Shown piece by piece: positions 2,498 to 63,973 of a DNA stretch of 64,000 nt. This DNA comes from an uncultured eubacterium 1-6. Its GTDB lineage: Bacteria; Bacillota; Clostridia; Lachnospirales; Lachnospiraceae. Under the pieces are notes generated by a model, which saw only the letters and a list, made by a program, of their open reading frames with translations, was not told where the DNA came from and searched no databases. The DNA lies in contig CAIFEZ010000016.1 of the NCBI GenBank assembly GCA_903789595.1, positions 1 to 64,000 on the forward strand. The letters run 5' to 3'. Positions within the stretch are counted from its first letter, which is position 1. Every line of letters begins with the position of its first letter. A program made the position numbers and the translations under genes.

Positions 2498-2620
2498 CGC
2501 TGTCTTCTTCCTCTCCGGTCCATGCCTCATTTTTTTGTTGTTTTCGAAGCTGTATCCCGTATTTGATACGCTCTTTGCGGCAGGTACTCCGTCTGCATTT
2601 CTGAAATGCTTTCATTCGCG

Positions 2621-2671
2621 CCGCATCAGCTGCGGATTGCTTCGTGCTGCGCACTCCTGCAATTCTACACG
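2621..2671. repeat. Repeat family A fragment (left part)
   Basis: CAGCTGCGGATTGCTTCGTG and the following GCGCACTCCTGCAAT match the left third of the full family A copies at 1144 and 9538. The rest of the element is absent. It sits between the HPr-like terminator and the AlaX gene. Confidence 0.6.
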
Positions 2672-2714
2672 AAAAACGGCAGATATTCATCCCCTCTCGA
2701 ACAAATATCTGCCG
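2672..2714 (-). terminator. Intrinsic terminator of the HPr-like gene
   Basis: Read on the minus strand, CGGCAGATATT (2714-2704) and AATATCTGCCG (2687-2677) form a perfect 11-bp stem, followed by five T residues (2676-2672). It lies downstream of the HPr-like gene and separates it from the AlaX gene. Confidence 0.75.
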
Positions 2715-2732
2715 GTCTTTCTGCTGTCATTA

Positions 2733-2798
2733 CTGTTTACACATAACTGACCAGGCAAGGATTTCACAGTACCTTTGCCTGATCATTACTGTCTGTTC
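2733..2798. repeat. Repeat family B, short partial copy
   Basis: A short hairpin unit containing GGCAAGGATTTCACAGTACC followed by TTTGCCTGATCATTACTG. It matches the ends of the longer family B elements at 16841-17169 and 41847-42086. The right terminal motif is not conserved here. It sits just downstream of the HPr-like gene. Confidence 0.6.
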
Positions 2799-2819
2799 CA
2801 TAATCTCTCCGGGCGCCGA

Positions 2820-3041
2820 TTACAAAACGTATGCGCTCAGGTACTCTTCCATCTGGGAATTGCCCTCCATGAACTCGACCTCCACAGGTTCAAATCCCAG
2901 GGCAAACACTCCCATAATTGATTTTCCATCTATCTCGCTTCGGCCTTTGCGGACCGTAACATCATCTGCGCACTCTCCGGCCAGCTTGACAAAAGCTACG
3001 ATATCCTCGACCCGGTTGAATTTTACCATTGCCTTTTTCAT
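2820..3041 (-). CDS. HPr/Crh-like protein lacking the phosphoacceptor histidine
   Basis: A 73-residue protein. Its central part aligns with the second half of HPr: KSIMGVFALG matches the KSIMGVMSLG region of HPr, which contains the regulatory Ser46. The N-terminal segment that should carry the His15 site (GIHARPA in HPr) reads VKFNRVEDIVAF, so the histidine phosphorylated by enzyme I is missing. By analogy with Bacillus Crh it could act in HPr-kinase-dependent catabolite control, not in sugar phosphotransfer; that is inference. It is monocistronic, with its own terminator at 2672-2714, downstream of and codirectional with the PucR-type regulator. Confidence 0.75.
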   Translation of the reverse strand: MKKAMVKFNRVEDIVAFVKLAGECADDVTVRKGRSEIDGKSIMGVFALGFEPVEVEFMEGNSQMEEYLSAYVL

Positions 3042-3105
3042 CTCTCATGCCTCTCCTCTGAAATAGCCTCGGTCTTCGATATCTACGGCCGACTTCTATA
3101 TATGA

Positions 3106-3128
3106 ATATTTCCGGGCTCCCCGGAAAG
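3106..3128. other. Intergenic hairpin downstream of pucR-like gene
   Basis: TTTCCGGG and CCCGGAAA form a short GC-rich stem around a CTC loop in the 254-base gap between the regulator and the HPr-like gene. It lacks a T tract in either direction, so it could be a transcript end or an RNA stabiliser. I see nothing else in this gap. Confidence 0.3.
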
Positions 3129-3295
3129 CATACCGCAGCATGCTGGACTTCTGTTACCTCCTGCTTTCCCTGAGATCCTGCATATATTTTACGCTGTTGC
3201 CATCGAAATGCAAAGCATTCGGGAGATTCCGCATAAAATTCGGGACTGATTTCTATAATCCCGGCAAAAACGCGAAGGAATTTTGTGCACATCTG

Positions 3296-4972: not shown

Positions 4973-5059
4973 CATATCTCTCCGTTTTATGCTACAATCT
5001 GATGCGTTTACTCTTGCTTTTCTCACTCGAAAGCGGCTGTAACTCCAGTGCCTCTTTTA

Positions 5060-5077
5060 TTATGATATTTATCATAA
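5060..5077. promoter_or_regulatory. Palindrome between pucR-like and URO-D genes, candidate operator
   Basis: TTATGATA and TATCATAA form a perfect 8-bp inverted repeat around a TT centre in the divergent intergenic region. Its position between two divergent starts suits an operator for the PucR-type regulator. The assignment rests only on symmetry and location. Confidence 0.45.
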
Positions 5078-5226
5078 ACCACATCATATACGTGTGGCAA
5101 AGGGTTTTTACTAAGGGTTTTAACAAAGAGATACACAGAAACCGACGAGGCGGATACAAGGCCCGCAATTCGCGCATCATTTTGTAGCGCATAAATGTGC
5201 ATCGTCGAAAAGGAGGAGGGATTCGA

Positions 5227-6480
5227 ATGGATGAACAGACAAGAAAAATCTATCAGGAAAAACTGGACCGCGTAAACAATGCCATCCGGCTGAAACCCAC
5301 AGACCGCATACCGATTGCGCCGTTTTTCGCATCCTACGTGCAGCGTTCAGAAGGTTCCAGCTACCGGGACCTTTATTACGATTTCGATAAGGCCGGCGAA
5401 GCAGCCGTCCGCTTTTATCGGAAACACCCTATGCTGGATGCCTACGGCGGGATCTCTTTCACAAGTGGAAAGGCGAACGAGCTGGCAGATTCTCAGATGA
5501 TTGACTGGCCCGGAAGACCCGGCACGAAGGTTTCCGACTACAGCTCGCATCAGGTCATCGAACGGGAATTCATGACGCAGGACGAATATCCGGAAATGCT
5601 CGGTGATTTCACCGGATTTATGATCCGAAAGTATATCCCAAGAGCATTCCCGAACCTTCGCGGGCTTTCCGGTATTCAGACAATTCCAACTATTGTTCTG
5701 TCTACAAGCATACTCGCACCATTCTGCAGCCAGGCAGCCCGCGATGCCTATTCCATCCTGGGAAAGATCGCCGACGCAGACGCCGAGGCGGCTGCTGCGT
5801 CTCAAAAATACGGACAGCAGATTGCTGATCTAGGACTTCCGGTGATGTTCACCGGTGCCTCCGAAGCGCCCTATGATATTCTGGGCGACTACTTCCGGGG
5901 TACCATGGGAATTTTCGAGGACCTGGTCGATGAAGACGTCCAGGAATATATGGAACAGGCATGTGATCTGTTTGCCGACCAGCAGATCCAGGCACTGCAA
6001 TATTTCCGCTATGTCGATCTTCCGGTAAAGCGGGTATTCTTCCCGCTTCACAAGGCAATGGACGGCTTTATGAACGACGAGCAGTTTGAGCGTCTGTACT
6101 GGAAGCCGCTGAAAAAAATCATTCTCGCACTTATTGACATGGATGTTACGCCTTACATTTACTGCGAAGGAAAATATAATTCACGTCTGGAGCACCTAGC
6201 CGATGTTCCGAAGGGAAAGGTCCTGTATCATTTTGAGAAAGTAGATATGAAAGAAGCCAAACGTATCCTCGGCGGTACCGCATGCATCATCGGAAATCTT
6301 CCGGTTTCCCAGCTGGAATTCGGGAAGAAGGAGACCGTGATCGATATGACCCGACAGCTTCTGGAGGACTGCATGCCCGGCGGCGGATATATCTTTGATT
6401 TTGACGGCAGCCTGGAAAATGCAAAAGAAGAAAATCTGGATGCCATGTTCGAAACACTGGAAAAATATGGAAAGTACTGA
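5227..6480 (+). CDS. Uroporphyrinogen decarboxylase-family protein (MtaA/CmuA-like)
   Basis: A 417-residue protein of the URO-D superfamily, which includes heme-pathway UroD and corrinoid-dependent methyltransferases. The N-terminal RIPIAPFFASYVQR region and the C-terminal GGYIFDFDG region occupy places conserved in the methyltransferase branch. The length exceeds classical UroD (about 340-370 residues), and there are no heme genes nearby, so methyl transfer is the more likely role. No corrinoid-binding protein is adjacent. I chose the ATG at 5227 because AAAAGGAGGAGG precedes it; the in-frame ATG at 5197 has none. It is divergent from the PucR-type regulator and is followed by an inverted repeat at 6531-6597. 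Confidence 0.75.
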   Translation: MDEQTRKIYQEKLDRVNNAIRLKPTDRIPIAPFFASYVQRSEGSSYRDLYYDFDKAGEAAVRFYRKHPMLDAYGGISFTSGKANELADSQMIDWPGRPGTKVSDYSSHQVIEREFMTQDEYPEMLGDFTGFMIRKYIPRAFPNLRGLSGIQTIPTIVLSTSILAPFCSQAARDAYSILGKIADADAEAAAASQKYGQQIADLGLPVMFTGASEAPYDILGDYFRGTMGIFEDLVDEDVQEYMEQACDLFADQQIQALQYFRYVDLPVKRVFFPLHKAMDGFMNDEQFERLYWKPLKKIILALIDMDVTPYIYCEGKYNSRLEHLADVPKGKVLYHFEKVDMKEAKRILGGTACIIGNLPVSQLEFGKKETVIDMTRQLLEDCMPGGGYIFDFDGSLENAKEENLDAMFETLEKYGKY

Positions 6481-6530
6481 TCTAACATGAGAAGCTGACA
6501 AACGGCACGATGAAATGAAATCGCTCTGAA

Positions 6531-6597
6531 AAAATCCCGCAATCCGCTGTCCTGTTCTGCATACTTCGCAGACCTCAGACATGAATTACGGGATTTT
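6531..6597 (+). terminator. Inverted repeat, possible terminator after the URO-D gene
   Basis: AAAATCCCGCAAT (6531-6543) and ATTACGGGATTTT (6585-6597) pair with one mismatch across a loop of about 41 bases, and the plus-strand copy runs into CTGTTTC. It lies between convergent genes and may end transcription from either side. The long loop lowers confidence. Confidence 0.45.
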
Positions 6598-6649
6598 CTG
6601 TTTCAATGATTCCTTTTGTTATCCTTCATAATTGAAGACAGCTTTTATG

Positions 6650-6943
6650 TCATCCTTCATAGTCGAAGATAGCCTTCTTCTCGAGATACTTTCCGTAGTC
6701 TCGTTTCCAGGCCCTGTGGATTTCACTGTCGTCATAGACGGGCAATGCCTCCGGTGTCATCCGGATCCGGATCAGAACGTCATACCGGTTTGACCGGTCA
6801 ATCACGTTCGGGAACACCTCCACCGACTCGATTCCTTCGATCTCTGTGAGACCGCCGAAGAGATCCCGGATCTCCTGGAGAAGTCTCTCCTTCTGCTCTC
6901 CGGATATTTCCGCATGATATTTTGCCAGTATACAATGAAACAT
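6650..6943 (-). CDS. Dabb (stress-responsive alpha/beta barrel) domain protein
   Basis: A 97-residue single-domain protein. It starts MFHCILAKYH and ends AIFDYEG, with the spacing seen in Dabb proteins: a beta strand, an amphipathic helix (EQKERLLQEIRDLFGGL), strands with SVEVFPNV and YDVLIRIRM, and a final helix with HRAWKRDYGKYLEKK. Members form dimeric ferredoxin-like barrels and are mostly uncharacterised. It lies 24 bases downstream of the DUF975 gene on the same strand, so the two are probably cotranscribed. Confidence 0.75.
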   Translation of the reverse strand: MFHCILAKYHAEISGEQKERLLQEIRDLFGGLTEIEGIESVEVFPNVIDRSNRYDVLIRIRMTPEALPVYDDSEIHRAWKRDYGKYLEKKAIFDYEG

Positions 6944-6967
6944 CTCATTTCCTCCAAATATTCTTCC

Positions 6968-7774
6968 TTACTGTGCGCCGGCGAAGTTTCCGTATCCGCC
7001 CGGATTCTGACCGGGGAACGGATTCTTCTCGATCTTGATGGCATCGTAGAGTGCGGCACTTGTCTGCGCCATATACGGATCCACATAGAAGAAGCCGACG
7101 AGTCCGAAGGTCACGCTCGAGAGGATCACCCACAGAATAAAGGACAGATCCAGCACAAATGCTTTCCACTTATTCCTGTACATCATATTTCTGCTGATAT
7201 TGAATGCATCCTCCATCGGCATGTCCGGATATTCAGCCAGAAGATACGGAATCATCCGATACTCATAACTCTTGACGATTCCGGGAATCACAAAAAGCAA
7301 TGACCAGAGAATCGTGTAAAGATCCCGGAAAAACATCACCTTTACCACATTTTTATAGGAGTGATCGAATCCGTACATGATTTCACGAAGCTCCGCCTTC
7401 TGATGAAGATTTGTGTAATAAAATCTTCGGATGCCGACCTCCAGCGGGTTCATCAGGAATACATCCGCCACAACCGCAATAACCACAATCACCAGTACTA
7501 CCGTAAAGATGATACCTGCAGCTACCAGCCACATACCGAACATGTCTCCCGGAATACTGCCCGGTCCTCTGTGGAATTCGAAACTCTTGACGTCTCCACT
7601 GGAAAATACCTCATAATTTGTAAATCCGTTGATAAATCCGGACAATGCCCTTCCGCCGGATCCGCCGTATGATCCGATTGCCAGGGAAAGAAGAAGCCCG
7701 GCCAAAACAGCTTTCCAGTAGTTTCCTCTGAATACCTCTTTCGACCGGGTCTTTAAACCAATCCTAGTCCACAT
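6968..7774 (-). CDS. DUF975 family integral membrane protein
   Basis: About 268 residues with an N-terminal cytoplasmic helix (IGLKTRSKEVFRGNYWKA) and roughly five membrane segments. The DUF975 hallmark follows: a segment with YEYRMIPYLLAEYPDM, then AFNISRNMMYRNKWKAFVLD, then two further helices. The tail FPGQNPGGYGNFAGAQ is Gly/Pro-rich. I chose the ATG at 7774, directly after AAGGAGGCAAT; the in-frame start at 7903 lacks such a site. The function of DUF975 is unknown. The downstream partner is the Dabb gene. Confidence 0.8.
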   Translation of the reverse strand: MWTRIGLKTRSKEVFRGNYWKAVLAGLLLSLAIGSYGGSGGRALSGFINGFTNYEVFSSGDVKSFEFHRGPGSIPGDMFGMWLVAAGIIFTVVLVIVVIAVVADVFLMNPLEVGIRRFYYTNLHQKAELREIMYGFDHSYKNVVKVMFFRDLYTILWSLLFVIPGIVKSYEYRMIPYLLAEYPDMPMEDAFNISRNMMYRNKWKAFVLDLSFILWVILSSVTFGLVGFFYVDPYMAQTSAALYDAIKIEKNPFPGQNPGGYGNFAGAQ

Positions 7775-8055
7775 ATTGCCTCCTTTTCTGTGATGCGGCA
7801 GATGCGGCATGATGTACACCGCCATCCGCGGCATCCCTGCCGCAGATTTCTCCTCACGTCGAAATCTGTCACCGTTGTTCTCATTCTTAAGTATACAGAA
7901 CACGGAGCAGATAGGAAAGCTTTTTCCATTCTAATGCAAGTGAAACGCAAAAATTTCACAGAACCAATGTCAGAGTGTTACCGCACACTAACCTGCAGCA
8001 GCTCCATAAAAGACAGCAGCCCCGTGAAATTTCCGAAGATTCTGTTAGGATATGA

Positions 8056-9366
8056 TCAGAGAATATCAATATATTCTCCTGCCAGCGCTTTATTCATGCT
8101 CCGCACCGCACAGAACTTTCCGCACATGGAGCAGGTATCGCTGTGATCATCCTCCGGCGCGCGGCTGTCACGTATGGATTTTGCCGTCTCCGGGTCAAGT
8201 GCTTCCTTGAACTGGACCTCCCAGTCAAGCTTCCGTCTAGCGTCTGCCATCCGGTCGTCCTGTTCCCGCGCGCCGGGAATTCCCTTTGCAATGTCCGCCG
8301 CGTGAGCCGCAATCCGACTTGCAATGATTCCCTGACGGACATCGTCCACATTCGGAAGCGCGAGATGCTCCGCGGGCGTCACATAACAGAGAAAAGCAGC
8401 CCCGCTCATCGCCGCAATTGCTCCGCCGATTGCTGCCGTGATGTGATCGTAGCCCGGCGCAATATCTGTCACCAAAGGTCCAAGTACGTAGAAGGGAGCG
8501 CCCTTGCAGATTGTCTGTTGAACCTTCATATTTGCGGCAATCTGATCCATCGGGACATGGCCCGGTCCTTCCACCATGACCTGAACATCTCTGTCCCAGG
8601 CCCGCTGCGTCAGCTCTCCAAGCCTCAGCAGTTCGCCGATCTGACAGCTGTCCGTCGCGTCCGCAAGGCATCCCGGCCGACACGCATCGCCGAGACTGAT
8701 GGTTACGTCGTGCTCCCGGCAGATCTCCAGAATCTCGTCATAATATTCATAGAAGGGATTTTCATTGCCCGTCATCGCCATCCACGCAAAAACCAGGCTT
8801 CCGCCCCGGCTTACAATGTTCATCTTTCTCCTACCGGCCTTTATTTCCTCAATGGTCTTCCTGGTGATTCCGCAGTGCAGAGTCACAAAGTCAACACCGT
8901 CCTCCGCGTGCAGACGCACGACATCGACAAAATCCTTCGCGGTGAGTGTTGCGAGATCTCTCTGATAATGAATCACAGAGTCATAAATCGGAACTGTGCC
9001 GATCATCGCCGGACATTCGCCAGTCAGTTTTTTGCGGAACGGCTGCGTGTTGCCGTGACTGGAAAGATCCATGATCGCCTCCGCTCCGAGATCGACGGCG
9101 CTCAGAACCTTCTTCATCTCGACATCGTAATCCTTTACATCGCGGCTGATGCCGAGATTGACGTTGATTTTCGTCTTCAGCATACTGCCGATGCCTCTCG
9201 GATCAAGACTCTTGTGTGATGGATTCGCGGGGATAACTACCTTTCCCTCCGCGACCCAGCCGCGGATTTCCTCCTCCGTTCTTCTCTCTTTTCCGGCCAC
9301 AGCCTTCATCTCCGGAGTAACGATTCCCTTTCTTGCCGCCTCCATCTGTGTATGATACTCTCTCAT
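8056..9366 (-). CDS. thiC: Phosphomethylpyrimidine synthase ThiC
   Basis: Converts aminoimidazole ribotide to hydroxymethylpyrimidine phosphate in thiamine synthesis, a radical-SAM reaction. The protein has 436 residues, the size of the short bacterial form. Family motifs are clear: [54 protein letters not shown] and the C-terminal Fe-S motif [15 protein letters not shown] aptamer and terminator lie on the same strand (9951-10033 and 9891-9921). They are separated from the ATG by about 480 bases filled with repeat family A, so the leader is unusually long. AAGGAAGGACAGG precedes the start. Confidence 0.97.
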
Positions 9367-9410
9367 CTCTAAACCTGTCCTTCCTTTCGAATTTCATTGC
9401 CTTATAACTT

Positions 9411-9896
9411 TCTTTCGCGCGCTTCGCGTGCGTCGTTCCTGTCTGCGTTTTCGAAGAGCTCTTTTTCTTTTATTGCATAAGCTGCGGATTGCTCCGTGCT
9501 TCGCGCCTGTCTGCGTTTTCGAAGAGCTCTTTTTCTTTTATTGCATAAGCTCCGGATTGCTCCGTGCTTCGCACTCTCGCAATCCTACAGGTATTCGGAT
9601 TTTGCGCTCTCGCGCTTCATCCTCATACCTGTTGCCTTCGAAATCGCATCCAGTCTCTTTCGCGCGCTTTGCGTGTGTCGTGCCTGTCTTCGTTTTCGAA
9701 GAGCTCTTTTCCTTTTATTGCATAAGCTGCGGATTGCTCCGTGCTTCGCACTCTCGCAATCCTACAGGTATTCGGATTTTGCGCTCTCGCGCTTCATCCT
9801 CATACCTGTTGCCTTCGAAATCGCATCCAGTCTCTTTCGCGCGCTTCGCGTGCGTCGTGCCTGTCTGCGTTTTCGAAGAGCTTATGCAATAAAAAA
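9411..9896. repeat. Tandem cluster of repeat family A inside the thiC leader
   Basis: Four units in a row: a right-end fragment (9411-9461), an internally deleted mini copy (9470-9525), and two near-identical full copies (9538-9705 and 9715-9892). Full copies begin TTATTGCATAAGCT; the last ends with the exact complement AGCTTATGCAATAA. Each carries hairpins such as GCGCGCTTCGCGTGCG and GTGCTTCGCAC. The right end of the last unit merges with the T tract of the riboswitch terminator. Open frames across this cluster are by-products of the repeats. Confidence 0.85.
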
Positions 9897-9921
9897 AGAC
9901 GATACCCGGATGGATACCGCC
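9891..9921 (-). terminator. Riboswitch terminator in the thiC leader
   Basis: On the minus strand GGCGGTATCC pairs with GGGTATCGTC (ten pairs, some G-T) around ATCC, followed by seven T residues (9897-9891). It lies about 30 bases after the TPP aptamer and is the natural expression platform: TPP binding should favour termination here. Confidence 0.8.
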
Positions 9922-9950
9922 TTGACAGACTACATAAAACACCAGTGCTC

Positions 9951-10033
9951 GCACTTCCCTACGTTGGCATTATCCAAATCAGGTTCTCGGGTCGTATCTC
10001 ATTTGATACCTCTCAGCCTTTTGGCTCCCCATG
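9951..10033 (-). promoter_or_regulatory. TPP riboswitch (THI box) upstream of thiC
   Basis: The minus strand shows the canonical aptamer: GGGGAGCC, GGCTGAGAGG, GACCCGAGAACCTGATTTGG and ATAATGCCAACGTAGGGAAG. The CTGAGA and ACCTGAT...GATAATGCCA blocks are the TPP-binding core. It controls thiC through the terminator at 9891-9921. A plausible -10 (TACAAT on the minus strand) lies about 15 bases upstream of the aptamer. Confidence 0.95.
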
Positions 10034-10184
10034 TTTTTCTATTCTATTGTATCGTGCCAGCCCAATTTATTCTGAATGAAAAATCGCCGGGCTTTTCAAC
10101 GGGACCATCATAGCATATCCCGCTTCTTTCAGCAAGCACCGTTTGATCATACCCAAACCGCGTGCCGTCATTTTTTCCATATGA

Positions 10185-11024
10185 TCAGGCATTCTTTCTT
10201 AATGCAAAGTGAGGATAGCCGAGAATCTTTTCCCGGTAATACCCGGTCAGCGCATACACCACTCTGCGGTTTATCCCCATACGTTTCCCCAGAACACGAA
10301 GCACAAGCCCATAACGATCAAGCAGAGACAATCCGAAGCGGACCTCCCCGGAACCGGTGAATTCCTGGTTCAGAAAGCTTCTCATTTCCTCCAGCATGGT
10401 CTCGTCGATCTCTTTATCGATAATAACGGCAGAATTGAAGTTCATCGATCCCTCAAAGCATCCGATCTCCTGCATATGGTCCTCTTCCGGGTTGACCAGC
10501 AGAAAATCATGAAACAACAACTCACCCTCCATCCGGATGTCTGTTTTCAGCCCGATGTCCTTGTATTGAAAGGGTTCCTCATCCTTCGACCATCCGGCCG
10601 TCAGTCCGTCTGTCATGATCAGCTTCGAACCAGCCGCCATCTGTATCTCTGTGTTCTGACGGAATCGGGCGCGTGCATATGGAATCGTCTCGTCAATGTA
10701 ATACTCCAGGAGGGAATTTTTTCCGATCTCTACCCGGTTGTTCTGGCTTGTCAGTCTTCCGCCGTCACACTTATAGATATAGTTTGGCGTCTGTGTAGTC
10801 ACGATCGCATGGCAATGCTCCTCCAGCGTGACCTCCTGAAGATAGGTTTCCCCTTCCGTAAACCCTCCGCCTGTACTGATCAGAAAATAGTAAGGGACAT
10901 CACCGGCAACCGCAATATTGCCGGAAATTCTGGAATTTCCCCTGCGGTAAGTCGTCCGGGCAACGGTTCGCCCGCTTTGATTGGTAAATCCGAGACGTAT
11001 CTCTCCGTCATATCGATTTTTCAT
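10185..11024 (-). CDS. ureD: Urease accessory protein UreD (UreH)
   Basis: The last gene of the urease operon. UreD binds apo-urease and with UreF and UreG delivers nickel and CO2 to the active site. The 279-residue length fits. Typical features are the N-terminal GEIRLGFTNQSGRT, YFLISTGGGFTEGETY (the conserved GGG segment), LLEYYIDETIPYARAR, and the C-terminal RVLGKRMGINRRVVYALTGY. GAGGAGAGATTGTT precedes the ATG. It lies 94 bases after ureG, and 150 bases separate it from the thiC riboswitch. Confidence 0.95.
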   Translation of the reverse strand: MKNRYDGEIRLGFTNQSGRTVARTTYRRGNSRISGNIAVAGDVPYYFLISTGGGFTEGETYLQEVTLEEHCHAIVTTQTPNYIYKCDGGRLTSQNNRVEIGKNSLLEYYIDETIPYARARFRQNTEIQMAAGSKLIMTDGLTAGWSKDEEPFQYKDIGLKTDIRMEGELLFHDFLLVNPEEDHMQEIGCFEGSMNFNSAVIIDKEIDETMLEEMRSFLNQEFTGSGEVRFGLSLLDRYGLVLRVLGKRMGINRRVVYALTGYYREKILGYPHFALRKNA

Positions 11025-11118
11025 AACAATCTCTCCTCACAACGGCAAACGATATTCCAAACGGCAAGCATCCCGCGCGATGTCACTGCCATCCCAAGCG
11101 GCAATGACACCAATCCGG

Positions 11119-11739
11119 TTATCCTTCCAGATCCTCCAGAAGGCAGTCTTTTTTCAGCCACTGTACCACATCTTCGAGGCCTTCATCCGTCTTCAGGTTC
11201 GTGAATACAAAGGTGCCGTCACCGCGGAACTTCCGGGACGTCTCCCGCATGTTTTCCAGATTCGCCCCGACATAGGGTGCCAGATCTATCTTATTGATGA
11301 TGAACAGATCCGATTTAATCATTCCCTGCCCGGCCTTTGCCGGGATCTTCTCTCCCTCCGCACAGTCAATGATATATATGGAAAAATCTACGAGCTCAGG
11401 GCTGAAGGTCGCCGCGAGATTATCTCCGCCGCTCTCAATGAACATCAAATCGAGCGTGTGATGGAAACGCTTTTCCAGCTTTTCCACCGCCGCAAAGTTC
11501 ATGGAAGCATCCTCACGGATCGCCGTGTGCGGACATCCCCCGGTCTCTACTCCAATGATCCGGTCCGCATCCAGTACGGAATGCGAAACCATATACTCTG
11601 CATCCCACTTTGTATAGATATCATTGGTGATGACTGCCATGCTGTATTCATCCTTCAGCCTCCTGGTAAGTCTCTCAATCAGCTGCGTTTTTCCGGATCC
11701 CACAGGACCTCCGACTCCGATTCTTACTGCCCGTTTCAT
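11119..11739 (-). CDS. ureG: Urease accessory GTPase UreG
   Basis: A SIMIBI-class GTPase that couples GTP hydrolysis to nickel insertion into urease. The 206 residues contain the Walker [10 protein letters not shown] near the N-terminus, the metal-binding CPH in [34 protein letters not shown] and the base-specificity motif NKID. All are intact. It is followed by ureD and preceded by ureF with a 126-base gap, so all accessory genes are transcribed together on the minus strand. Confidence 0.97.
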
Positions 11740-11865
11740 GATTTATCGTCCTTTCTCTTGTTATACTTTCGCATGGAACTCCCACGCCCCGCATACGCCG
11801 TACGGTATCCTCCACACATTCGCGATTCGCTTGTCTTCCTGCTCTATTAGAAAAATCGTGTTATC

Positions 11866-12558
11866 CTATGACATGAACAGTCTGGCTTCCTGCGTCTCAT
11901 GACAGATTTGCGCCAGTTCCAGTCCGGGAATATTCGCGCCCAGATAATCCTCATCCAGGCCGTCCGTCCGGTCAAATAGATCCGTGATCAGAAGCATGAC
12001 ATCATGCAGAATCACCTGGCCTTCTCTCTGGCCCAGAGGCACAGACCGGACCGCATTCTGCACCAGCGTAGACGCGACACTGTAACCATACAGTTCGAAC
12101 GCATCTCTGCAATCGATACCCTTCTCGTGCGCGAAGACAGAAAAAACAATCGCGGGACTGCCAAAATATTCGTCCTCCTCCATCCTCTCTGCATAGCGAT
12201 TCAGAAACGAAAACCTGTCCCCATAGATTTTCCGGATCAGCGCCGCCATCTGGACCGCAATCATGCGGCTTCCCTCACGGGTCTCTCTTGCCGCCACAGA
12301 CCGGTTGATGATGTCATCGTACCGCAGAAGAGCATCCTCTCTGCCCTCATCCAGCGCGCGGCTGCATAAAATGACCAGCAGCCCCTCTCCGTAACGGTAC
12401 TGAGAACGAAAATAGCTTTCCAGCCACTCCCGGAACTGCGATGCCTTTCGAATCACTCTCCTCGCCAGATAATTTTCCATCCCGAAAGAGTGGTTAAAGG
12501 TGCCGATCGGGAAGGTTGAATCACAGATCTGAAATGCCTCCAGCAACTCTTTTTTCAT
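11866..12558 (-). CDS. ureF: Urease accessory protein UreF
   Basis: An all-helical protein that bridges UreD and UreG in the urease maturation complex. About 230 residues, with the family N-terminus FQICDSTFPIGTFNHSFGME and the central AREGSR-like segment ARETREGSRM. I place the start at the ATG at 12558 (MKKELLEAFQ), behind GAGAGGACAATAACAG; an upstream in-frame start at 12612 would add residues not typical of UreF. It lies between ureE and ureG. Confidence 0.92.
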   Translation of the reverse strand: MKKELLEAFQICDSTFPIGTFNHSFGMENYLARRVIRKASQFREWLESYFRSQYRYGEGLLVILCSRALDEGREDALLRYDDIINRSVAARETREGSRMIAVQMAALIRKIYGDRFSFLNRYAERMEEDEYFGSPAIVFSVFAHEKGIDCRDAFELYGYSVASTLVQNAVRSVPLGQREGQVILHDVMLLITDLFDRTDGLDEDYLGANIPGLELAQICHETQEARLFMS

Positions 12559-12677
12559 TCTGTTATTGTCCTCTCTATCGATATCGTCTGCTCCATTTCT
12601 TATCCCGATCATGCCGCAGAATACCAGGGGGTCCTTCCGCGGCAGTGCTCCATGGAGAACCGATGATTCCTTTCCCC

Positions 12678-13169
12678 TTAATGTTCATCCGCATGATGTG
12701 CATGCGTATGAGTATGGGCGCCGGGCGTCAGATTCGCATACTGCATCGGCTGATCCAGCTGCACCTTCTCCACCGTGAAGGCCGTTCCATTCTCCTGCAA
12801 CGTCTTTTGCACCACCGGATCCATCAAAAGAGTAATTTTTCCATTCCCGATCTGCACCGGCTTGTGAAGATTTCCCAGCATATGTGCCGTTCTGCCCATT
12901 TCATCCATGTCAGACGGCGTAATCACAATGACCTCATCGGGAATGACACGCAGAACGAGAAGCTTTCCCTGACCAAGCACGAACGCAGATCCGTTCTCTA
13001 ACTTCTGTGCCTCATCCGCGAGCCGGATTCCGTAGTCTCGTCCGTGATCCGAGGTTACGCGCAGAATCGATTTCAGAAGGTCATCACTCTTCACCAGGGC
13101 GGTCTCCACATGCCAGGATCCCAGATTCGGAATGTCCTGTATATTTCCGTATACTTCTGTCAAAATCAT
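12678..13169 (-). CDS. ureE: Urease nickel metallochaperone UreE
   Basis: Delivers nickel to UreG. The 163 residues contain an N-terminal peptide-binding domain, a C-terminal ferredoxin-like metal domain with [19 protein letters not shown] and HKPVQI, and a histidine-rich tail ([12 protein letters not shown]) suited to binding several nickel ions. A 201-base gap separates it from ureC and holds a GC-rich hairpin (13220-13252). Confidence 0.95.
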
Positions 13170-13219
13170 GATGCTCTAAGCTCCTCTCTGCCAGATTGTT
13201 TTTCTATAAACATAGAGAT

Positions 13220-13252
13220 CGGTCCGGCTGCCACTCCAGACAGTCCGGACCG
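13220..13252. other. Hairpin between ureC and ureE
   Basis: CGGTCCGG and CCGGACCG form a perfect 8-bp stem in the 201-base gap between ureC and ureE. No T tract follows, so it may be a processing or stabilising structure separating structural from accessory genes, not a strong terminator. Confidence 0.4.
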
Positions 13253-13370
13253 CCTCCCGCCGACGAATCCACCGGAAAAAATCATTCCTGTTTTTGTAAT
13301 TATTCCACATATCGACAGAACCGCAGGTTCTTGAGATTGAGGGTATGAATATTTATGCGATTAATATCTC

Positions 13371-15092
13371 TCAGAAGAAATAGTAGCGCTGTGCCAGAGA
13401 AATCGTATCTACCGGCTCACAGCTGATCAGTTCGTCGTCAATGGTTACATTAAAAGTCTGCGGATCGATCTTGATCGTCTTTGGCGCATAGTCATTCAGC
13501 TTCATATCTCTCTTTGTGAGATTCCGCGTGTTGTGAACCGGGAGAACAATCTTATTCAGGCCGAGCTTCTCCTTGATTCCGTGGGTGTACGCATAAGTTG
13601 ATACAAAGGTGATGCTTGTGCTCTGCACTGCCTTGCCGAAAGCACCGTAGAGATCTCTCATCATTCTCGGCTCGGGTGTCGGAAGACTGGAAGAAGCATC
13701 TCCGACAACACCGTAAACGATCATACCGGATTTCAGCACCAGCTTTGGTTTTGCGCCGAAGAACTTCGGATCCCAGATAACCAGGTCTGCGTACTTGCCG
13801 ACCTCTACGGAACCGACGTAATCGGAAATGCCGTTAACGATGGCCGGATTGATGGTATATTTTGCCACATATCTCTTGATCCGGTTGTTGTCATCATATT
13901 CCGAATCGCCCTCGAGAGGTCCTCTCTGCTGTTTCATCTTGTCTGCCAGCTGCCAGCAGCGCATTGCCACCTCGCCGACACGGCCCATCGCCATGGCGTC
14001 TGACGTCATAACGCTGAGAGCACCCATGTCATGAAGAACATCCTCGGCAGCCACCGTCTGTTTTCTGACTCGAGACTCCGCAAAAGCGACATCCTCCGGA
14101 ACCTTCGGATCCAGATTATGGCAGACCATGGTCATGTCAAAGAGCTCGTCAATCACGTTCTGTGTGTAAGGGTTCGTCGGATTCGTTGAAGAAGGAAGGA
14201 TGTTCTCATCTCCCGCCACAATCATGATGTCCGGAGCATGTCCGCCGCCGGCGCCCTCTGTGTGGAAAGTGTGAACCGTGCGTCCCGCAAACGCATTGAT
14301 GGTATTCTCCACAAATCCGCCCTCGTTCAGGGAGTCGGTGTGCACCGCGTACTGAACATCATACTTGTCAGCAGCTTTGATCGAATTATCGATTCCGGCG
14401 GCTGTTGCGCCCCAGTCCTCATGGGTCTTGATAGCCGCAGCGCCTGCCTCAACCTGCTCGGCGATGGTCTCCGGCGTCGCGCCGGCGCCCTTTGCCATAA
14501 ATCCGTAGTTCAGAGGATCATTTTCCACGGCCTCGATCATGCGCTGAATATGCCATGCCCCGGGTGTCGTTGTGGCGGAGTTAGAGCCGTCTGCAGGACC
14601 GGTCCCGCCTCCGAAGAGCGTCGTGATACCGTTGTCCAGAGCGGCATGAGCCAGGCCCGTGGAAAGATAATGAACATGAAGATCGATGCCGCCGGCGGTA
14701 AGAATCAGTCCCTCTCCGGAAATCGCCTCTGTGCTGGCTCCGACGATAAAGTCAATGTTGTCCATGATATCCGGATTTCCGCCCTTGCCGATGGCGAGGA
14801 TCTTGCCGTCACGGATACCGATATCTGCCTTGTAGATGCCCGTATAATCGATGACGGTAATTCCCGTAATAATGGTATCTGCTACCTTCGGGTTGTCCCT
14901 TCTGGTCTGTGTTGCGCTGACACCCATTCCGTCGCGGAGAACCTTGCCGCCGCCGAATTTGCTCTCTTGTCCGTGTACGGTATAATCCTTCTCTATCTTC
15001 GCGAACAGGTTGGTGTCTCCCAGGCGGACGCTGTCTCCCTCCGCCGGCCCGAACATCTGTGTATACTGTTTCCGATCCATATCAAAGCTCAT
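13371..15092 (-). CDS. ureC: Urease alpha (catalytic) subunit UreC
   Basis: The nickel-containing subunit hydrolysing urea to ammonia and carbamate. It has 573 residues. Active-site landmarks are present: the two metal-binding histidines in HVHYLSTG, the carbamylated lysine in [31 protein letters not shown], the flap Cys-His in MVCHNLD, the Arg in FAESRVRKQ and the Asp in [10 protein letters not shown]. The segment after the first histidines (YLSTG, where well-known ureases have FICPQ) and CHN instead of CHH are local departures, but the ligands remain. Its start overlaps the end of ureB by four bases (ATGA), implying translational coupling. Confidence 0.97.
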
Positions 15093-36356: not shown

Positions 36357-36399
36357 GGCCACATTAAAGCAGAACGCTTTAGAAAAATCAAGAAAACAG

Positions 36400-36488
36400 A
36401 CTGGGGAGCCCGATGCATCGGGCTGAGAGGACAGATTTTGAGCTGTTGACCCATGAACCTGATTTGGATAATGCCAACGTAGGGAGCA
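36400..36488 (+). promoter_or_regulatory. TPP riboswitch upstream of thiW
   Basis: Canonical core: CTGGGGAGCC, GGGCTGAGAGG, GACCCATGAACCTGATTTGG and ATAATGCCAACGTAGGGAG. The P3 region between CTGAGAGG and ACCC differs from the thiC copy, so the two aptamers are not a recent duplication. A terminator follows at 36521-36551. Confidence 0.95.
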
Positions 36489-36520
36489 TCGCTGTTATTT
36501 ACGCGGACAACGTATGTATG

Positions 36521-58153: not shown

Positions 58154-58354
58154 CTATCTTGATGTACCATCAGCAGGGTGATCGCTTTCCGGCTGCTTCT
58201 CATTGGCGGGAGCAGCGGTGCTTTCCGGATGGTTTCCTTTTGCGGGAAAGAGCTTTGTGAGAAGCATCATGATGGCGATCAGCACGATGGTGACGATAAA
58301 GATCCCGAGCATTCCGAGACCCATGACTTTCAACGATTCAAAAAATGTACTCAT
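58154..58354 (-). CDS. Sodium pump decarboxylase gamma-like subunit (OadG family)
   Basis: 66 residues: a single membrane helix (GLGMLGIFIVTIVLIAIMML) preceded by a short amphipathic start and followed by a Pro/Ala/Glu-rich cytoplasmic tail (STAAPANEKQPESD), the usual build of OadG. It assembles and stabilises Na+-translocating decarboxylases. ATG at 58354 behind AAGGAGGCTGAAA, 27 bases after oadB. The tail lacks the terminal His-rich zinc segment of some OadG proteins. Confidence 0.82.
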   Translation of the reverse strand: MSTFFESLKVMGLGMLGIFIVTIVLIAIMMLLTKLFPAKGNHPESTAAPANEKQPESDHPADGTSR

Positions 58355-58381
58355 TTTCAGCCTCCTTATCAAGATCTGCAA

Positions 58382-59524
58382 TTAAACGAGCGGAACCAGA
58401 CTCAGGATCAGACCGCCCGCGATAACGGACGCGATCTGGCCGGAGACATTGACGCCGGTGGCCTGCATGATCAGAACATTGGAGGGATCCTCCTTGATGC
58501 CCATCTGTGTGATGACTCTGGCTGACATCGGGAACGCGGAGATGCCGCAGGCTCCGATCATCGGGTTGACCTTCTTGTCCTTCGGAAGGAACAGATTCAG
58601 CAGCTTTGCAAAGAGAACACCGCCGATGGTGTCAAATACAAAGGCGATCAGTCCCAGAAGGAGGATCAGCAGTGTCCGGACGTTCAGAAAGTCCTCTGCA
58701 CGCATCTGCGAAGCCACAGTGATGCCGAGCATCAGCGTGATGATGTTGGCCAGAGAATGCTGTGCCGTATCGGAAAGCGAATCCAGAACGCCGCATTCGC
58801 GGACGAGATTTCCGAACATCAGGAAGCCCACCAGGGCGACAGACCGCGGTGCGACGATTCCCGCGATAATGGTGATGCATACGGGGAACAGAATCTTCAC
58901 CGGCTTAGATACGCTGTGCGGACTGTAGGACATATGCATGGCGCGCTCCTTCTTCGTCGTCACCGCGCGGATGACCGGCGGCTGAATGATCGGCACAAGC
59001 GCCATGTAGGAGTACGCCGCGACGATAATGGCGCCGAGGTATTTGGAGCCGAAGTAATTGGCGACGAAGATGGAGGTCGGTCCGTCCGCCGCACCGATGA
59101 TGCCGACGGAGGCGGCATCCTGGAGGCTGAAGCCCATCAGAGTGGCCAGACTCAGCGTGAAGAAGATGCCGAACTGGGCGGCTCCGCCGAAAAGCATCAT
59201 CAGCGGATTGGCCAGAAGCGGCGTGAAATCAATCATTGCTCCGATGCCGATGAAGAGCAGGAGCAGAAAAATTTCATTGGCAATGCCTGCGTTGAAGAGC
59301 GTGTCCAGCGGCCCTTCCGTCACGACACCGTTGATCTTCTGTGTGACAGCTCCCGACATCGGAAGGTTGACCAGAACCGCGCCGAATCCCATCGGCACGA
59401 GCAAGGAGGGCTCCATCTTCTTTACAATGCCCAGATAGATCAGGACGCCTCCGATGATCCACATGACGGCCATCTGCCATGTGATGTTCCCCGCGTTGGA
59501 GAACAGTTCCATAATTCCCTGCAT
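58382..59524 (-). CDS. oadB: Sodium-translocating decarboxylase beta subunit (OadB/GcdB/MmdB family)
   Basis: The membrane subunit that couples decarboxylation of carboxybiotin to Na+ export. 380 residues with about eleven helices. Motifs: GIGAMIDFTPLLANP, the Na+-site segment GIIGAADGPTSIFVAN, and GACGISAFPMSARV with TGVNVSGQIASVIAGG at the end. The substrate is set by an alpha subunit, which is absent here, so oxaloacetate, methylmalonyl-CoA and glutaconyl-CoA all remain possible; oxaloacetate fits the malate/aspartate genes. The gene is preceded by a 480-base leader with a folded region, terminator and tandem array. Confidence 0.92.
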   Translation of the reverse strand: MQGIMELFSNAGNITWQMAVMWIIGGVLIYLGIVKKMEPSLLVPMGFGAVLVNLPMSGAVTQKINGVVTEGPLDTLFNAGIANEIFLLLLFIGIGAMIDFTPLLANPLMMLFGGAAQFGIFFTLSLATLMGFSLQDAASVGIIGAADGPTSIFVANYFGSKYLGAIIVAAYSYMALVPIIQPPVIRAVTTKKERAMHMSYSPHSVSKPVKILFPVCITIIAGIVAPRSVALVGFLMFGNLVRECGVLDSLSDTAQHSLANIITLMLGITVASQMRAEDFLNVRTLLILLLGLIAFVFDTIGGVLFAKLLNLFLPKDKKVNPMIGACGISAFPMSARVITQMGIKEDPSNVLIMQATGVNVSGQIASVIAGGLILSLVPLV

Positions 59525-59654
59525 AACAACAACTCCTTTCTGTGATGTAACGCCTCGCAGTTTCTGACAGGCTGCGGCGGGCTGTCTGCTGATTTTCCCT
59601 GCCGGAGCGGCGCGGGCACGCCGGTGACGGACGCAGGCGGCTGCGGTTTTCGAG

Positions 59655-59820
59655 ACATCATTGGTTTAAGAGACATCATCGATTTATGGGATACATTATC
59701 GGTTTACGGGCAGCAGAATCGATCAATGGGTCACACAGAATCGATTAATGGGTCACGCAGAATCGATTAATGGGTCACACAGAATCGATTAATGGGCCAC
59801 GGAATCAATTAGAGGGACAA
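59655..59820. repeat. 22-bp tandem array in the oadB leader
   Basis: Four near-perfect 22-base units run from 59714 to 59801, each containing AGAATCGATTAATGGGTCAC with one or two changes. Degenerate units extend on both sides (ACATCATCGATTTATGGG, ACATTATCGGTTTACGGG and GAATCAATTAGAGGGAC). Each unit carries the palindrome ATCGAT. There are no unique spacers, so it is not a CRISPR array. Confidence 0.9.
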
Positions 59821-59867
59821 AAAAAGCGGGACTTCTGTGCAGCATAAAGCTGCAACAGAAGTCTCGC
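59819..59867 (-). terminator. Terminator inside the oadB leader
   Basis: On the minus strand GCGAGACTTCTGT pairs with ACAGAAGTCCCGC, enclosing a GCAGC...GCTGC hairpin, followed by seven T residues. It stands between the folded leader segment and oadB, where a riboswitch expression platform would be, and could also end dus read-through. Confidence 0.8.
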
Positions 59868-59924
59868 CATTCGATTTCGTATACAATCCGGATTGATCTC
59901 ATATGCTCAGTGCGGATTCCTATG

Positions 59925-60005
59925 CGTCTCTTAAGACCGGTCTCGGGGATATCCCGTGCTGACGGAACCGGTCACAGCAATGCTGCAGGCTACTCCCTGT
60001 CTGTT
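59925..60005 (-). ncRNA. Structured leader RNA upstream of oadB, candidate riboswitch
   Basis: The minus strand shows ACAGACAGGGAGTAGCCTGC, a CAGCATTGCTG hairpin, GACCGGTTCCGTCAGCACGG, GGATATCCC and GAGACCGGTC, where GACCGGT and ACCGGTC pair over an internal hairpin. The opening GGGAGTAGC and the CGTCAGCACG block recall the yybP-ykoY manganese aptamer, but its usual 3' end is not obvious. A promoter lies just upstream and a terminator downstream, so a ligand-controlled attenuator is likely. The gene context would suit a Na+-sensing RNA. Confidence 0.5.
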
Positions 60006-60016
60006 GATATAAATTT

Positions 60017-60045
60017 ATATTAATGAGATACCTGTGAAAAAGCAA
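60017..60045 (-). promoter_or_regulatory. Sigma-A promoter of the oadB leader
   Basis: On the minus strand TTGCTT (60045-60040), a 17-base spacer and TAATAT (60022-60017). Transcription would start near 60010, just before the GGGAGTAGC segment, giving a leader of about 485 bases. Confidence 0.65.
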
Positions 60046-61129: not shown

Positions 61130-63973
61130 TTATTTTGCTTCCATCAATTTCTGGTACATACACATCAGTCTGCCCACGCAGTCGGATTCAGACATCTTCG
61201 TGCTGAACCCGTATGCCTTCATTACCGCCACATCATTTGCCGTGTGCGCCTTCCGAAGTTCCGGTGGCATGGTCAGCGGATCGTAGAGATCGGCCAGAGA
61301 AGAATCTGGGTACAAGGCGCGGGCATTGAGGATACCCTGAGCGGTCTGGGTGATGCGGTTCTTTTGCTCTTCTGTGGGCGTTGGCCAGGGGAATGTGTTA
61401 TAGTCAATCGCTCCAGAATACTGATAATCGCTTTTAAGCCGACCGGTCACGCATCGCACCCACGCCATGTGAACATTAGACGTCAGTACGCCAAAATCAT
61501 AACGATCTGCATTTTCGACAATAAGCAGCTTGTTAGATGCAATCCAGCCTTCCGGCAAGAAACCCATCGGAATATATCTTCTTCTTTGCGATGAAACCTC
61601 AGGTATTGCGAGATACTTCACATCTTTCTTCTGCGGAGCGGAAAAGAATAAGTATGGCGTTTCTGCCGCTTGTCTGGTTGGCTTTGCGGTGCTTTCACGC
61701 CGAATTTTACCGACGGCTTCTAATCTTCGCATCACCGCTTTATTGTTCCGATATATTTTCGTATTTACATCCCTAAGCCAAAGGCAATATCGGTTCTCAT
61801 CTTTATTAATAAAATCACGAGAACCGACATACCTTCTTATATATAATTGTGCTTCTGGATCAGTCTCTATAATTTGTCTTGCCTCGTCTTCACTAAGAAT
61901 GAGATTTCCTCCGTCAGATGGTTTATTCCCAGCCGTTAACCTTTTTACCGGACAGATTGGCGTGTTCGTTCCAGTTATTATCACATCAGGTGAATCAAAT
62001 AGATATGGATTAATGCGACTGACTTCTCTTTTTTCCGTGTCTTCATAAATGAATTTATGCGGCACCTCTGTTTCACTAAAACCGATAATCACACAATGAA
62101 CATGAGCTTTTTCATTAGCCTCGCTATCCCAAATAAATGTCCGGTGAGCAAAATCAATGTGAACATTTCTCAGAGAAATCAAAGTCCCCCATAAAGGGGC
62201 AACCTGCTCCCCTTGCGTAATAGAATTCGTCGAGACAAAAGCACAACGGATATTTGTCCCTTGTATAAATTCGGTTGCCTTGTAATACCATCCTCCGACG
62301 TAATCTATGCTATTGGCTCTCTTTACTTTTTCGAATAAAGAAGTAATCTCATCCTTCTGCTCCTTTGACATCATAGATGCACCCACAAACGGTGGGTTAC
62401 CCATGATATACGAAAGCTTATTCTTATCAACAATCTTGTTCCAGTCCAGTCGCAGAGCATTCCCTTCCGTAATATTCACATAGGTCTTCAGCGGCAGGAA
62501 ATCCTGATTGAAACCATACAGAATACTCTTCGTCTCCTCCAGCATCTGGCTTTCCGCGATCCATAGCGCTGTCTTCGCGACCGTTACAGCAAAGTCCAGA
62601 AGCTCACACCCGAAAAACTGCTGGATAGAAACCTTTATCGGGTTATTAAAATCCTCCGATCCAAAAATAATCTGTCCTCCTGTCTTTTCCCGGATGGCCT
62701 CATTTTCCAATCTACGAATCGAGATATATGATTCTGTTAGGAAATTCCCAGATCCAGCTGCCGGATCGAAAAATGTAAGCGACGCAAGTTTGTTCTGAAA
62801 AGCATCGAGTTTTGCCCGTTTCGTTCGCTTCACATTGATTTTTTTAATCTCTTCAAATTCCGCTTTCAGGTCGTCCAGAAAGAGCGGGTCAATAACTTTG
62901 TGTATATTTGTAATTGAAGTGTAATGGGCACCAGACTTCCGGCGTGTCTCCGGATTCAACGTGCTCTCAAACACTGCACCGAAAATGGTTGGGCTGATAT
63001 CGCGCCAATTAAAATCTGCCGATGCTTTATCCAGAAGCAGGCTCTTGATCTCTTCCGTCAGCGGCGGCACGATAATATTCTCATCGGCAAACAAGCCGCC
63101 GTTCACATACGGAAATGCAGCCAGTTCCTCTTCCAGATACTCATCGCGCTCATCAACCGGTGTATCCAGCACTTTGAACAGGCGCATCAAAGCGTTCCGA
63201 CACTGCGATGCCGGGAAGGGTTCCAGATAATCATGAAACTGATTCCTCTCAAAGATACCTGCGTCCTCACTGTAGAACAGGAAGACGAGGCGGACACAAA
63301 GCGCATTCAGACTACGCAATTTGTGCTCCCGCCTTTTCTTTTCCTCCTCCGTCTCATCCTTCGGCACGGATTCGCTTACGCCGTACTGTTTCAGGAAGGC
63401 ATCGTAAATCATGCCGACAATATCACCAGCCTTGATTGAGATCTCCATTTCGTGGCTCAGCTCCTTGACTTCTTTCTTCACGAGAAAGTCCAGAAGCGGG
63501 TATTTCGTCTGAAGGTCAGGCAGTTCAATCTTTTGCGGTTCTGGAATCGTGACATTCATGTCATAGACCCAGATATTCAGGAAATTGCACGTTATGATCC
63601 ATCTGGCCTTCTCATCGAACGGCAAATTGTCATTGTATCGTTTTGCCTGTTCGTACGGTGTGAGCATTTCACCGCCGGATTGCGGTTCCTTCTCATCCAG
63701 CGGATGTTTTGATCCCTTCTGCTCGATCAGAACCTTCACATCGGAAATGTATCCGTCGATGTAACGGGTATGTATTTTTCCGTCGCCTTCACGGAGCTTC
63801 ACCGGCTTTTCAAACTGAATATATTCTGTAGTGTTTTCAACGTCGAGAATATTCTGAAGCAGTTGGATCCAGAACGGATGGCAGTCCTGCTTCTCATCCC
63901 CTCTGGTTCTCCACCTGTTTATAAATTGTCTCGCAGCTTCCCTCTGCTGGGCATCTGTCATCTGATTCACCAC
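61130..63973 (-). CDS. Single-chain type IIG-like restriction-methylation enzyme (MmeI-like)
   Basis: About 947 residues combining possible nuclease, methyltransferase and specificity regions. The N-terminus has a PD-(D/E)xK-like site: Asp73 or Asp78 in YIDGYISDVKVL and Glu84-x-Lys86 in EQKGS. A helical region follows. The N6-adenine methyltransferase domain has GAHYTS (348-353), motif I DPAAGSGNF (403-411) and motif IV NPPF (526-529). The C-terminal 300 residues, with FPWPTPTEEQKNRI, would recognise the target. Starts are GTG 63973, or ATG 63961 with GAGAG upstream. If functional it defends against phage without a separate nuclease gene. Confidence 0.85.
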   Translation of the reverse strand: MVNQMTDAQQREAARQFINRWRTRGDEKQDCHPFWIQLLQNILDVENTTEYIQFEKPVKLREGDGKIHTRYIDGYISDVKVLIEQKGSKHPLDEKEPQSGGEMLTPYEQAKRYNDNLPFDEKARWIITCNFLNIWVYDMNVTIPEPQKIELPDLQTKYPLLDFLVKKEVKELSHEMEISIKAGDIVGMIYDAFLKQYGVSESVPKDETEEEKKRREHKLRSLNALCVRLVFLFYSEDAGIFERNQFHDYLEPFPASQCRNALMRLFKVLDTPVDERDEYLEEELAAFPYVNGGLFADENIIVPPLTEEIKSLLLDKASADFNWRDISPTIFGAVFESTLNPETRRKSGAHYTSITNIHKVIDPLFLDDLKAEFEEIKKINVKRTKRAKLDAFQNKLASLTFFDPAAGSGNFLTESYISIRRLENEAIREKTGGQIIFGSEDFNNPIKVSIQQFFGCELLDFAVTVAKTALWIAESQMLEETKSILYGFNQDFLPLKTYVNITEGNALRLDWNKIVDKNKLSYIMGNPPFVGASMMSKEQKDEITSLFEKVKRANSIDYVGGWYYKATEFIQGTNIRCAFVSTNSITQGEQVAPLWGTLISLRNVHIDFAHRTFIWDSEANEKAHVHCVIIGFSETEVPHKFIYEDTEKREVSRINPYLFDSPDVIITGTNTPICPVKRLTAGNKPSDGGNLILSEDEARQIIETDPEAQLYIRRYVGSRDFINKDENRYCLWLRDVNTKIYRNNKAVMRRLEAVGKIRRESTAKPTRQAAETPYLFFSAPQKKDVKYLAIPEVSSQRRRYIPMGFLPEGWIASNKLLIVENADRYDFGVLTSNVHMAWVRCVTGRLKSDYQYSGAIDYNTFPWPTPTEEQKNRITQTAQGILNARALYPDSSLADLYDPLTMPPELRKAHTANDVAVMKAYGFSTKMSESDCVGRLMCMYQKLMEAK

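Follow-up and report, generated by a model that had tools for sequence, protein, structure and literature searches.

Riboswitches of the yybP-ykoY family (RF00080 in Rfam) are typified by an L1 motif resembling GGGGAGUAGC. In their solved structures, as described in the available part of PMC6754395, Mn2+ is held by phosphates and by the N7 of an invariant L3 adenosine (A41 in L. lactis, A48 in X. oryzae), and the base following this adenosine is A in L. lactis and U in X. oryzae. In the L. lactis riboswitch, Mn2+ stabilises the switch helix and termination is prevented (PMC11087558, available in part). The closest described protein system is the OadABG Na+ pump, represented by the Salmonella beta-gamma structures 6IVA/6IWW. 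Residues D203, S382 and N412 of the Salmonella subunit belong to the Na+ sites, and its closest fold is that of the symporter CitS. In PMC7274780, available in part, beta-gamma remained intact when gamma lacked residues 61-84, with co-purifying alpha severely reduced. Na+-I (DUF1646) riboswitches may also precede oxaloacetate-decarboxylase genes (PMC9337991, in part).

The window is the whole stretch of DNA analysed here, 64,000 nucleotides long. On its minus strand, from approximately 60045 to 58154, a structured leader, a terminator and an oadB-oadG pair are all borne out in the sequence. We assign a probability of roughly 0.87 to the reading that the leader contains a yybP-ykoY-type aptamer with a P1/terminator switch, which Mn2+ would turn ON, and that oadB-oadG probably serves manganese homeostasis. 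The RNA is an unannotated branch of a known riboswitch and the switching mechanism is likewise known; what is new is the target, oadB-oadG, which was not seen linked to manganese in the literature searched. That search, conducted mostly outside subscription papers, returned none combining "manganese export" with "oxaloacetate decarboxylase". The terms yybP-ykoY and oxaloacetate decarboxylase occurred together only in the Na+-I paper (PMC9337991), where, in the portion available, yybP stands in the reference list.

Organisation of the leader

A promoter of the form TTGCTT-17-TAATAT was read from the sequence at 60017..60045 (minus strand, as for all features of this locus), with transcription expected to start near 60010. 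The initial annotation had called this a good promoter; both elements are present, but the wording was generous because the -35 element is weak and a consensus promoter scan lists none for the leader region. The yybP-ykoY-type (Mn2+) aptamer spans 59851..60010, as delimited by our covariance model R1 and the covariation of homologues. The 5' strand of P1, the switching helix, is CAACAGA at 60000..60006 and pairs with 59859-59853. Alignment places the L1 motif GGGAGTAGC (RNA form GGGAGUAGC) at 59997-59989 and the L3 motif CGTCAGCACG (RNA form CGUCAGCACG) at 59964-59955, and a further piece of the folded segment, GGGATATCCC, lies at 59955-59946. P3 (GACCGGU/ACCGGUC, 59973-59967/59941-59935) was seen in the folds, where it encloses L3 and P3.2 (GGG AUAU CCC). 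Along the leader, the order is L1, the P2 hairpin, P3, a long variable P4 region, GCGAGAC and the terminator.

The intrinsic terminator occupies 59826..59867 (-24.2 kcal/mol) and is followed by a T-rich tail with T7 at 59825-59819; its 5' arm includes the 3' strand of P1 (59859-59853). The 181-nt leader stretch folds at -65.9 kcal/mol with a z-score of -4.05, and none of 200 shuffled sequences was equally stable. The compact folded segment with its GACCGGT/ACCGGTC pairing and the terminator ahead of the gene, both read from the letters in the initial annotation, therefore stand.

A tandem-repeat spacer separates the terminator from oadB (59652..59811; a 22-nt unit in 4.5 copies plus degenerate units of 18-20 nt), and it occurs at a single place in the organism's own genome. 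Aptamer and oadB lie 327 nt apart in the window, versus 60, 66, 84 and 196 nt in four loci of the same genus. A Shine-Dalgarno sequence of oadB, AAAGGAG, is found at 59539-59533. In one same-genus genome (G006), the part of the leader from P3 to the terminator holds an insert in the P4 region, about 100 bases long, that the G008 leader lacks.

When 98 genomes, the organism's own among them, were searched at the DNA level, the leader was found before oadB in three genomes of the same genus (G011, G008 and G006), and in two of these loci the genes further upstream differ. In a fourth (G004), with 82% identity in oadB, the leader has the sequence GGGAGTAGC ... CGTCATCACG ... GCAAGAC; its P1 is unlike that of the window in sequence, yet complementary. 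The oadB of a fifth genome (G003) has no such leader. An oadB of the window's kind is present in 6 of the 16 genomes of the genus.

Identity of the RNA family

The initial annotation had proposed a covariance-model search against Rfam. The scan of the leader gave nothing at the gathering score, and cmscan at E up to 10 matched no riboswitch family, RF00080 included, so that any Rfam riboswitch family is ruled out for the leader at both thresholds. Above its cut-off and with strict filters, RF00080 was found in 0 of 98 related genomes, own included, and it stayed below the cut-off in all ten riboswitch-bearing loci tested. In another genus (G030), a terminator-like match proved to be part of a near-canonical yybP-ykoY leader before a Na+/Ca2+-type exchanger, and even there RF00080 reached just 11.9 bits (E 10).

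A two-motif pattern was scanned over 397 genomes of the bacterial family, with matches in 13 genomes versus 1 for the reversed pattern. R1 was derived from ten seed leaders, all outside the window's genus (11 of the 13 lay outside and one near-duplicate was dropped), and none of the downstream frames listed for these seeds is oadB. The model was built from other leaders because MAFFT alone misaligns the window's P3, which is still imperfect in R1's own alignment. In 135.7 kb of searched sequence, R1 matched the window leader at 60008-59851 with 32.1 bits and E 6.5e-6, an E-value of a kind that is rough and a score that is not wholly independent, because the pattern used to choose the seeds shares letters with the window. 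Four same-genus leaders were also recovered (46.7 to 24.7 bits), and there was no other match at E up to 10. L1 (GGGAGUAGC) is identical in 15 aligned leaders, most of them chosen by a pattern that fixes those letters.

At E up to 0.01, R1 matched at least 223 of the 397 genomes of the bacterial family. Counts of R1 matches are minimum values, because a search of 21 genomes did not return the leaders that precede oadB2 in G190 and G214. The L3 loops of two R1 matches (L159 and L164) are unusual, and both matches could be degenerate or spurious. One leader (L223) aligns poorly on its 3' side, and one locus (L171) has GGGAGTAG 834 nt upstream without an R1 match. The mntP leaders of G006 and G008, which are R1-positive, gave no RF00080 match with strict filters. 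As R1 finds leaders of the same branch before mntP that RF00080 misses, the failure of Rfam is taken here as a weakness of that model for this branch. The public Mn2+ riboswitch model therefore has a blind spot in Clostridia (R1 in at least 223 of 397 genomes, RF00080 in 0 of 98, the two sets being different).

By its sequence, fold, switching helix and neighbours, the leader is thus assigned as a divergent yybP-ykoY (Mn2+) riboswitch. It is like RF00080 in its L1, in an L3 CGUCA with the sensing adenosine, in the P1/P2/P3 layout and in the strand common to the P1 switch helix and the terminator, and the branch also occurs before mntP and cation transporters. It differs in remaining below the cut-off in the tested loci, in its oadB-oadG target, in the G that follows the sensing adenosine and in the long, variable P4 region. 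The yybP-ykoY likeness that the initial annotation saw in the opening of the leader was the right lead.

Covariation and switching

Covariation among homologous leaders was the second check proposed at the outset. For 29 leaders before oadB2, the gene type to which the window's oadB belongs, the covariation score was 0.605, versus at most 0.142 with partners slid; both partners vary in 29 of the 31 pairs, and 91.5% of cells are paired. A set of 29 leaders from named genomes gave 27 of 31 covarying pairs and 0.619 versus at most 0.142 when slid; the alignments were fitted to R1, which biases these values in its favour. The helices covered are P1, P2, P3 and P3.2, and a P4-like hairpin appears in single folds only.

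A terminator-like hairpin starting in the region of the P1 3' strand was detected in 50 of 58 leaders versus 11 of 290 shuffles. When the window transcript is cut at 59851, its best fold (-44.3 kcal/mol) has P1, whereas the full leader favours the terminator (-65.9 versus -51.0 kcal/mol with P1 enforced). This P1/terminator arrangement is equivalent to that of the L. lactis Mn2+ riboswitch. The likely Mn2+ site lies between L1 and L3, and binding there would hold P1. Because P1 and the terminator share one strand, a P1 held in this way would block the terminator and switch transcription of oadB-oadG ON at high Mn2+. Both the ligand and the ON direction are what we infer from studied members of the yybP-ykoY family. 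The riboswitch architecture first suggested for this leader is strongly supported.

OadB2 and its small partner

The oadB gene (58382..59524, 380 aa) matches Pfam OAD_beta with 484 bits and resembles Salmonella OadB at E 7.7e-90. Among the matches listed, OadB-family proteins of the bacterial family are either 58-100% or approximately 45-52% identical to that of the window. In a FastTree phylogeny, 128 proteins of the window's kind, named OadB2 here, are split by a long branch with local support of 100 from 17 of the decarboxylase type, the latter loci being a small part of those in the bacterial family. The organism's own genome has both types, with the second oadB lying in a full cluster that also encodes OadA, OadG, the biotin carrier and carboxyltransferase. 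Decarboxylase partners of this sort are near 16 of the 17 decarboxylase-type loci. Homologues of OadA, the biotin carrier and carboxyltransferase were found in 0 of 48 OadB2 stretches by tblastn over about 6 to 16 kb, a search that the short OadG escapes. Among 80 named oadB2 loci, the best of 583, three have alpha, carboxyltransferase or biotin genes nearby.

The residues D147, S329 and N359 of OadB2 align with Salmonella D203, S382 and N412 and are conserved (numbering counted on the alignment); Na+ coupling is therefore likely kept. Loss of Na+-site residues as proof of a changed role was ruled out, these residues being retained. The OadB2-specific residues D298, Q363, N260, C244 and M274 were considered as a metal site, but they are equally conserved in loci without the riboswitch.

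Directly downstream lies a short oadG (58154..58381; an ORF of 75 aa with a probable start inside), which matches OAD_gamma with 29.6 bits against a cut-off of 27 and has, by reading, one membrane helix. The oadB-oadG pair named in the initial annotation is hereby upheld, and oadB standing alone is ruled out. In a crude motif search, 109 of the 126 loci with enough sequence had a short OadG-like frame following oadB2, with visible false matches at L209, L218 and L222. Among 102 parsed OadG sequences, the median length is 46 residues with the riboswitch (46 loci) and 45.5 without; in some riboswitch-less loci OadG reaches 96-127 residues. The window OadG is longer than the median, with 47 residues after the motif, and its Pfam match stops at position 54 of the 76-position profile. 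Short OadG frames are present too in the three named loci with decarboxylase partners. The short OadG, taken with the role of the Salmonella gamma tail, suggests that OadB2-OadG would form an alpha-free beta-gamma complex.

The pair thus resembles the OadABG Na+ pump in its OadB sequence, Na+-site residues and OadG helix. It differs in the separate clade of OadB2, the short OadG, the Mn2+ riboswitch upstream and the lack of a nearby alpha or biotin gene.

Distribution of the riboswitch and its targets

Outside the genus, in loci found by protein alone, R1 was detected within 1.5 kb upstream of 14 of 28 OadB2 loci. A riboswitch was present upstream in 29 of the 80 named loci, the best of 583 and also found by protein alone; at least 3 of the 51 others end too close upstream, and this set partially overlaps with the 397 genomes. 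The figure of 29/48 from the 48-locus set is biased upward, because the set includes loci picked after R1 matches; the counts of 14 of 28 and 29 of 80 are free of this bias. At decarboxylase-type oadB loci, R1 matched 0 of 17 at E up to 10. In the sets checked for strand, every match lies on the strand of the gene. Named carriers of the riboswitch before oadB2 include Gemmiger formicilis and Porcincola intestinalis.

The distribution is patchy, with no riboswitch seen at 70 of 128 oadB2 loci. Mapped onto the tree, the riboswitch label changes 21 times, and at least 11 of these changes are forced by well-supported branches. Such repeated gain or loss would fit selection for manganese control of oadB2.

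Intervening genes were also observed. The order is riboswitch, CNNM/CorC, oadB2 in three loci (L161, L165 and L166), a Na+/Pi-type transporter lies between riboswitch and oadB2 in another (L163), and L223 shows riboswitch, mntP, oadB2. It had been objected at the outset that the downstream gene is not a manganese gene. This is a weak argument, given the L223 order and the repeated association of the oadB2 lineage with the Mn2+ riboswitch.

The search of 21 genomes yielded at least 30 R1 matches, in 20 of the genomes. Of these, 19 lie ahead of oadB2 (two of them with a CNNM gene in between), 6 ahead of cation P-type ATPase genes, 4 ahead of mntP and one ahead of an SPFH gene. The 19 are not a rate, because the genomes were chosen for a riboswitch at oadB2. 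A match within 300 nt of mntP was found in 4 of the 21, and in G006 and G008, both of the window's genus, separate copies precede mntP and oadB2. MntP, CaxA-type exchangers and cation P-type ATPases have the same RNA branch upstream as OadB2 and belong to unrelated protein families.

SPFH/Band_7 genes lie directly behind R1 riboswitches in two loci (L116 and L298), a possible further manganese-regulated membrane function. Strong R1 matches were also seen upstream of a CitMHS-type transporter and an AI-2E-type transporter (L109 and L121).

Alternative explanations and proposed function

An ordinary terminator with chance structure upstream is a negligible prospect. Terminator-like hairpins are common, and the region scan expects about one by chance and leaves that of the leader unlisted, but the covariation, the fold z-score and the conservation across genera are all contrary to it. 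The initial annotation had favoured a Na+ sensor or a new class, and a Na+ (or Li+) riboswitch, known or new, would match a Na+ pump to its ion. The sodium and lithium riboswitch families are presumably included in Rfam 15, and none of Na+-I, nhaA-I and nhaA-II was listed when the leader was run through cmscan at E up to 10. Although oadB belongs to a Na+-pump family, and other bacteria are reported to have Na+-I ahead of oxaloacetate decarboxylase genes (PMC9337991, in the part available), the neighbours of the leader differ from those of Na+-I. R1 RNAs also precede mntP and cation ATPases and are absent, at E up to 10, from the 17 decarboxylase-type oadB loci. Sequence, fold, switching helix and neighbours point instead to Mn2+, leaving a sodium sensor very improbable; the step from Na+ pump to Na+ sensor is a tempting misreading that these results correct. 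A yybP-ykoY fold with a shifted ligand, for example Ca2+ alongside Mn2+ or some other divalent ion, is unlikely to a lesser degree. The L3 of oadB2 leaders varies outside CGUCA, and in some within it; Na+/Ca2+-type exchangers and Ca2+-type ATPases are among the targets; and, for a streptococcal member, a response to Ca2+ has been reported too (PMC9495176, in part). The window nonetheless keeps the Mn2+-contacting adenosine, since 59960 aligns with A41/A48, and the next base, G here, already differs between the two Mn2+-binding structures.

With Mn2+ retained as the probable ligand, the role of the proteins was considered. For a transporter that is induced by Mn2+, coupled to Na+ and lacks a decarboxylase motor, export of Mn2+ or another cation is the simplest predicted function. 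We regard it as quite possible, although short of an even chance, that beta and gamma form a complex without alpha which exports Mn2+ or works as an exchanger of cations against Na+. A more tentative proposal is that OadB2 and the short OadG constitute an unrecognised family of manganese/divalent cation exporters, a former decarboxylase sodium pump without its catalytic subunit, widely switched ON in Clostridia by a Mn2+ riboswitch branch that RNA models miss. It is also conceivable, if somewhat doubtful, that the riboswitch senses Mn2+ while OadB2-OadG acts in trans as an alternative beta-gamma pair of the decarboxylase at high manganese; other roles share the smaller remaining probability. 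The Na+-site residues are kept, the organism's own genome has an alpha subunit elsewhere, and decarboxylase genes lie near the three named oadB2 loci mentioned above. In three further genomes (G118, G170 and G323), OadA comes immediately after the biotin-carrier gene, the cluster has no oadB, and no OadB other than OadB2 was found at E up to 1e-60; here OadB2 may be the decarboxylase's own subunit, which is the chief argument against the export reading. Against a role in trans, the riboswitch was undetected at oadB2 in all six of these cases, the short gamma would lack the alpha-holding tail known from Salmonella (PMC7274780, in part), and the organism's genome has a complete decarboxylase cluster that includes a separate oadB.

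That OadB2 replaces MntP was ruled out, as an MntP gene is present in 21 of the 21 genomes tested; for the same reason, OadB2 is not needed as the sole exporter. Overall, the results suggest that the OadB-OadG membrane proteins help bacteria to cope with excess manganese, possibly as a predicted exporter. OadB2 is currently named only as a decarboxylase subunit (NCBIfam TIGR01109), and the riboswitch gives it a testable function. If the pair exports Mn2+, it would represent a new exporter family in which a primary Na+ pump has turned into a secondary transporter.

The neighbours of the pair in the window are dus and CobW/HypB-type GTPases. Downstream of oadG, the segment 53346-57633 holds two adjacent CobW/HypB-type GTPase genes and a large ferredoxin-type oxidoreductase. 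Next to dus, a long gene at 61130-63973 resembles, by eye, a DNA methyltransferase/restriction enzyme. Elsewhere in the window (1147-14908 and 36392-36502), three Clostridiales-1 RNAs, a 5_ureB_sRNA match and two TPP riboswitches were identified above the Rfam cut-offs.
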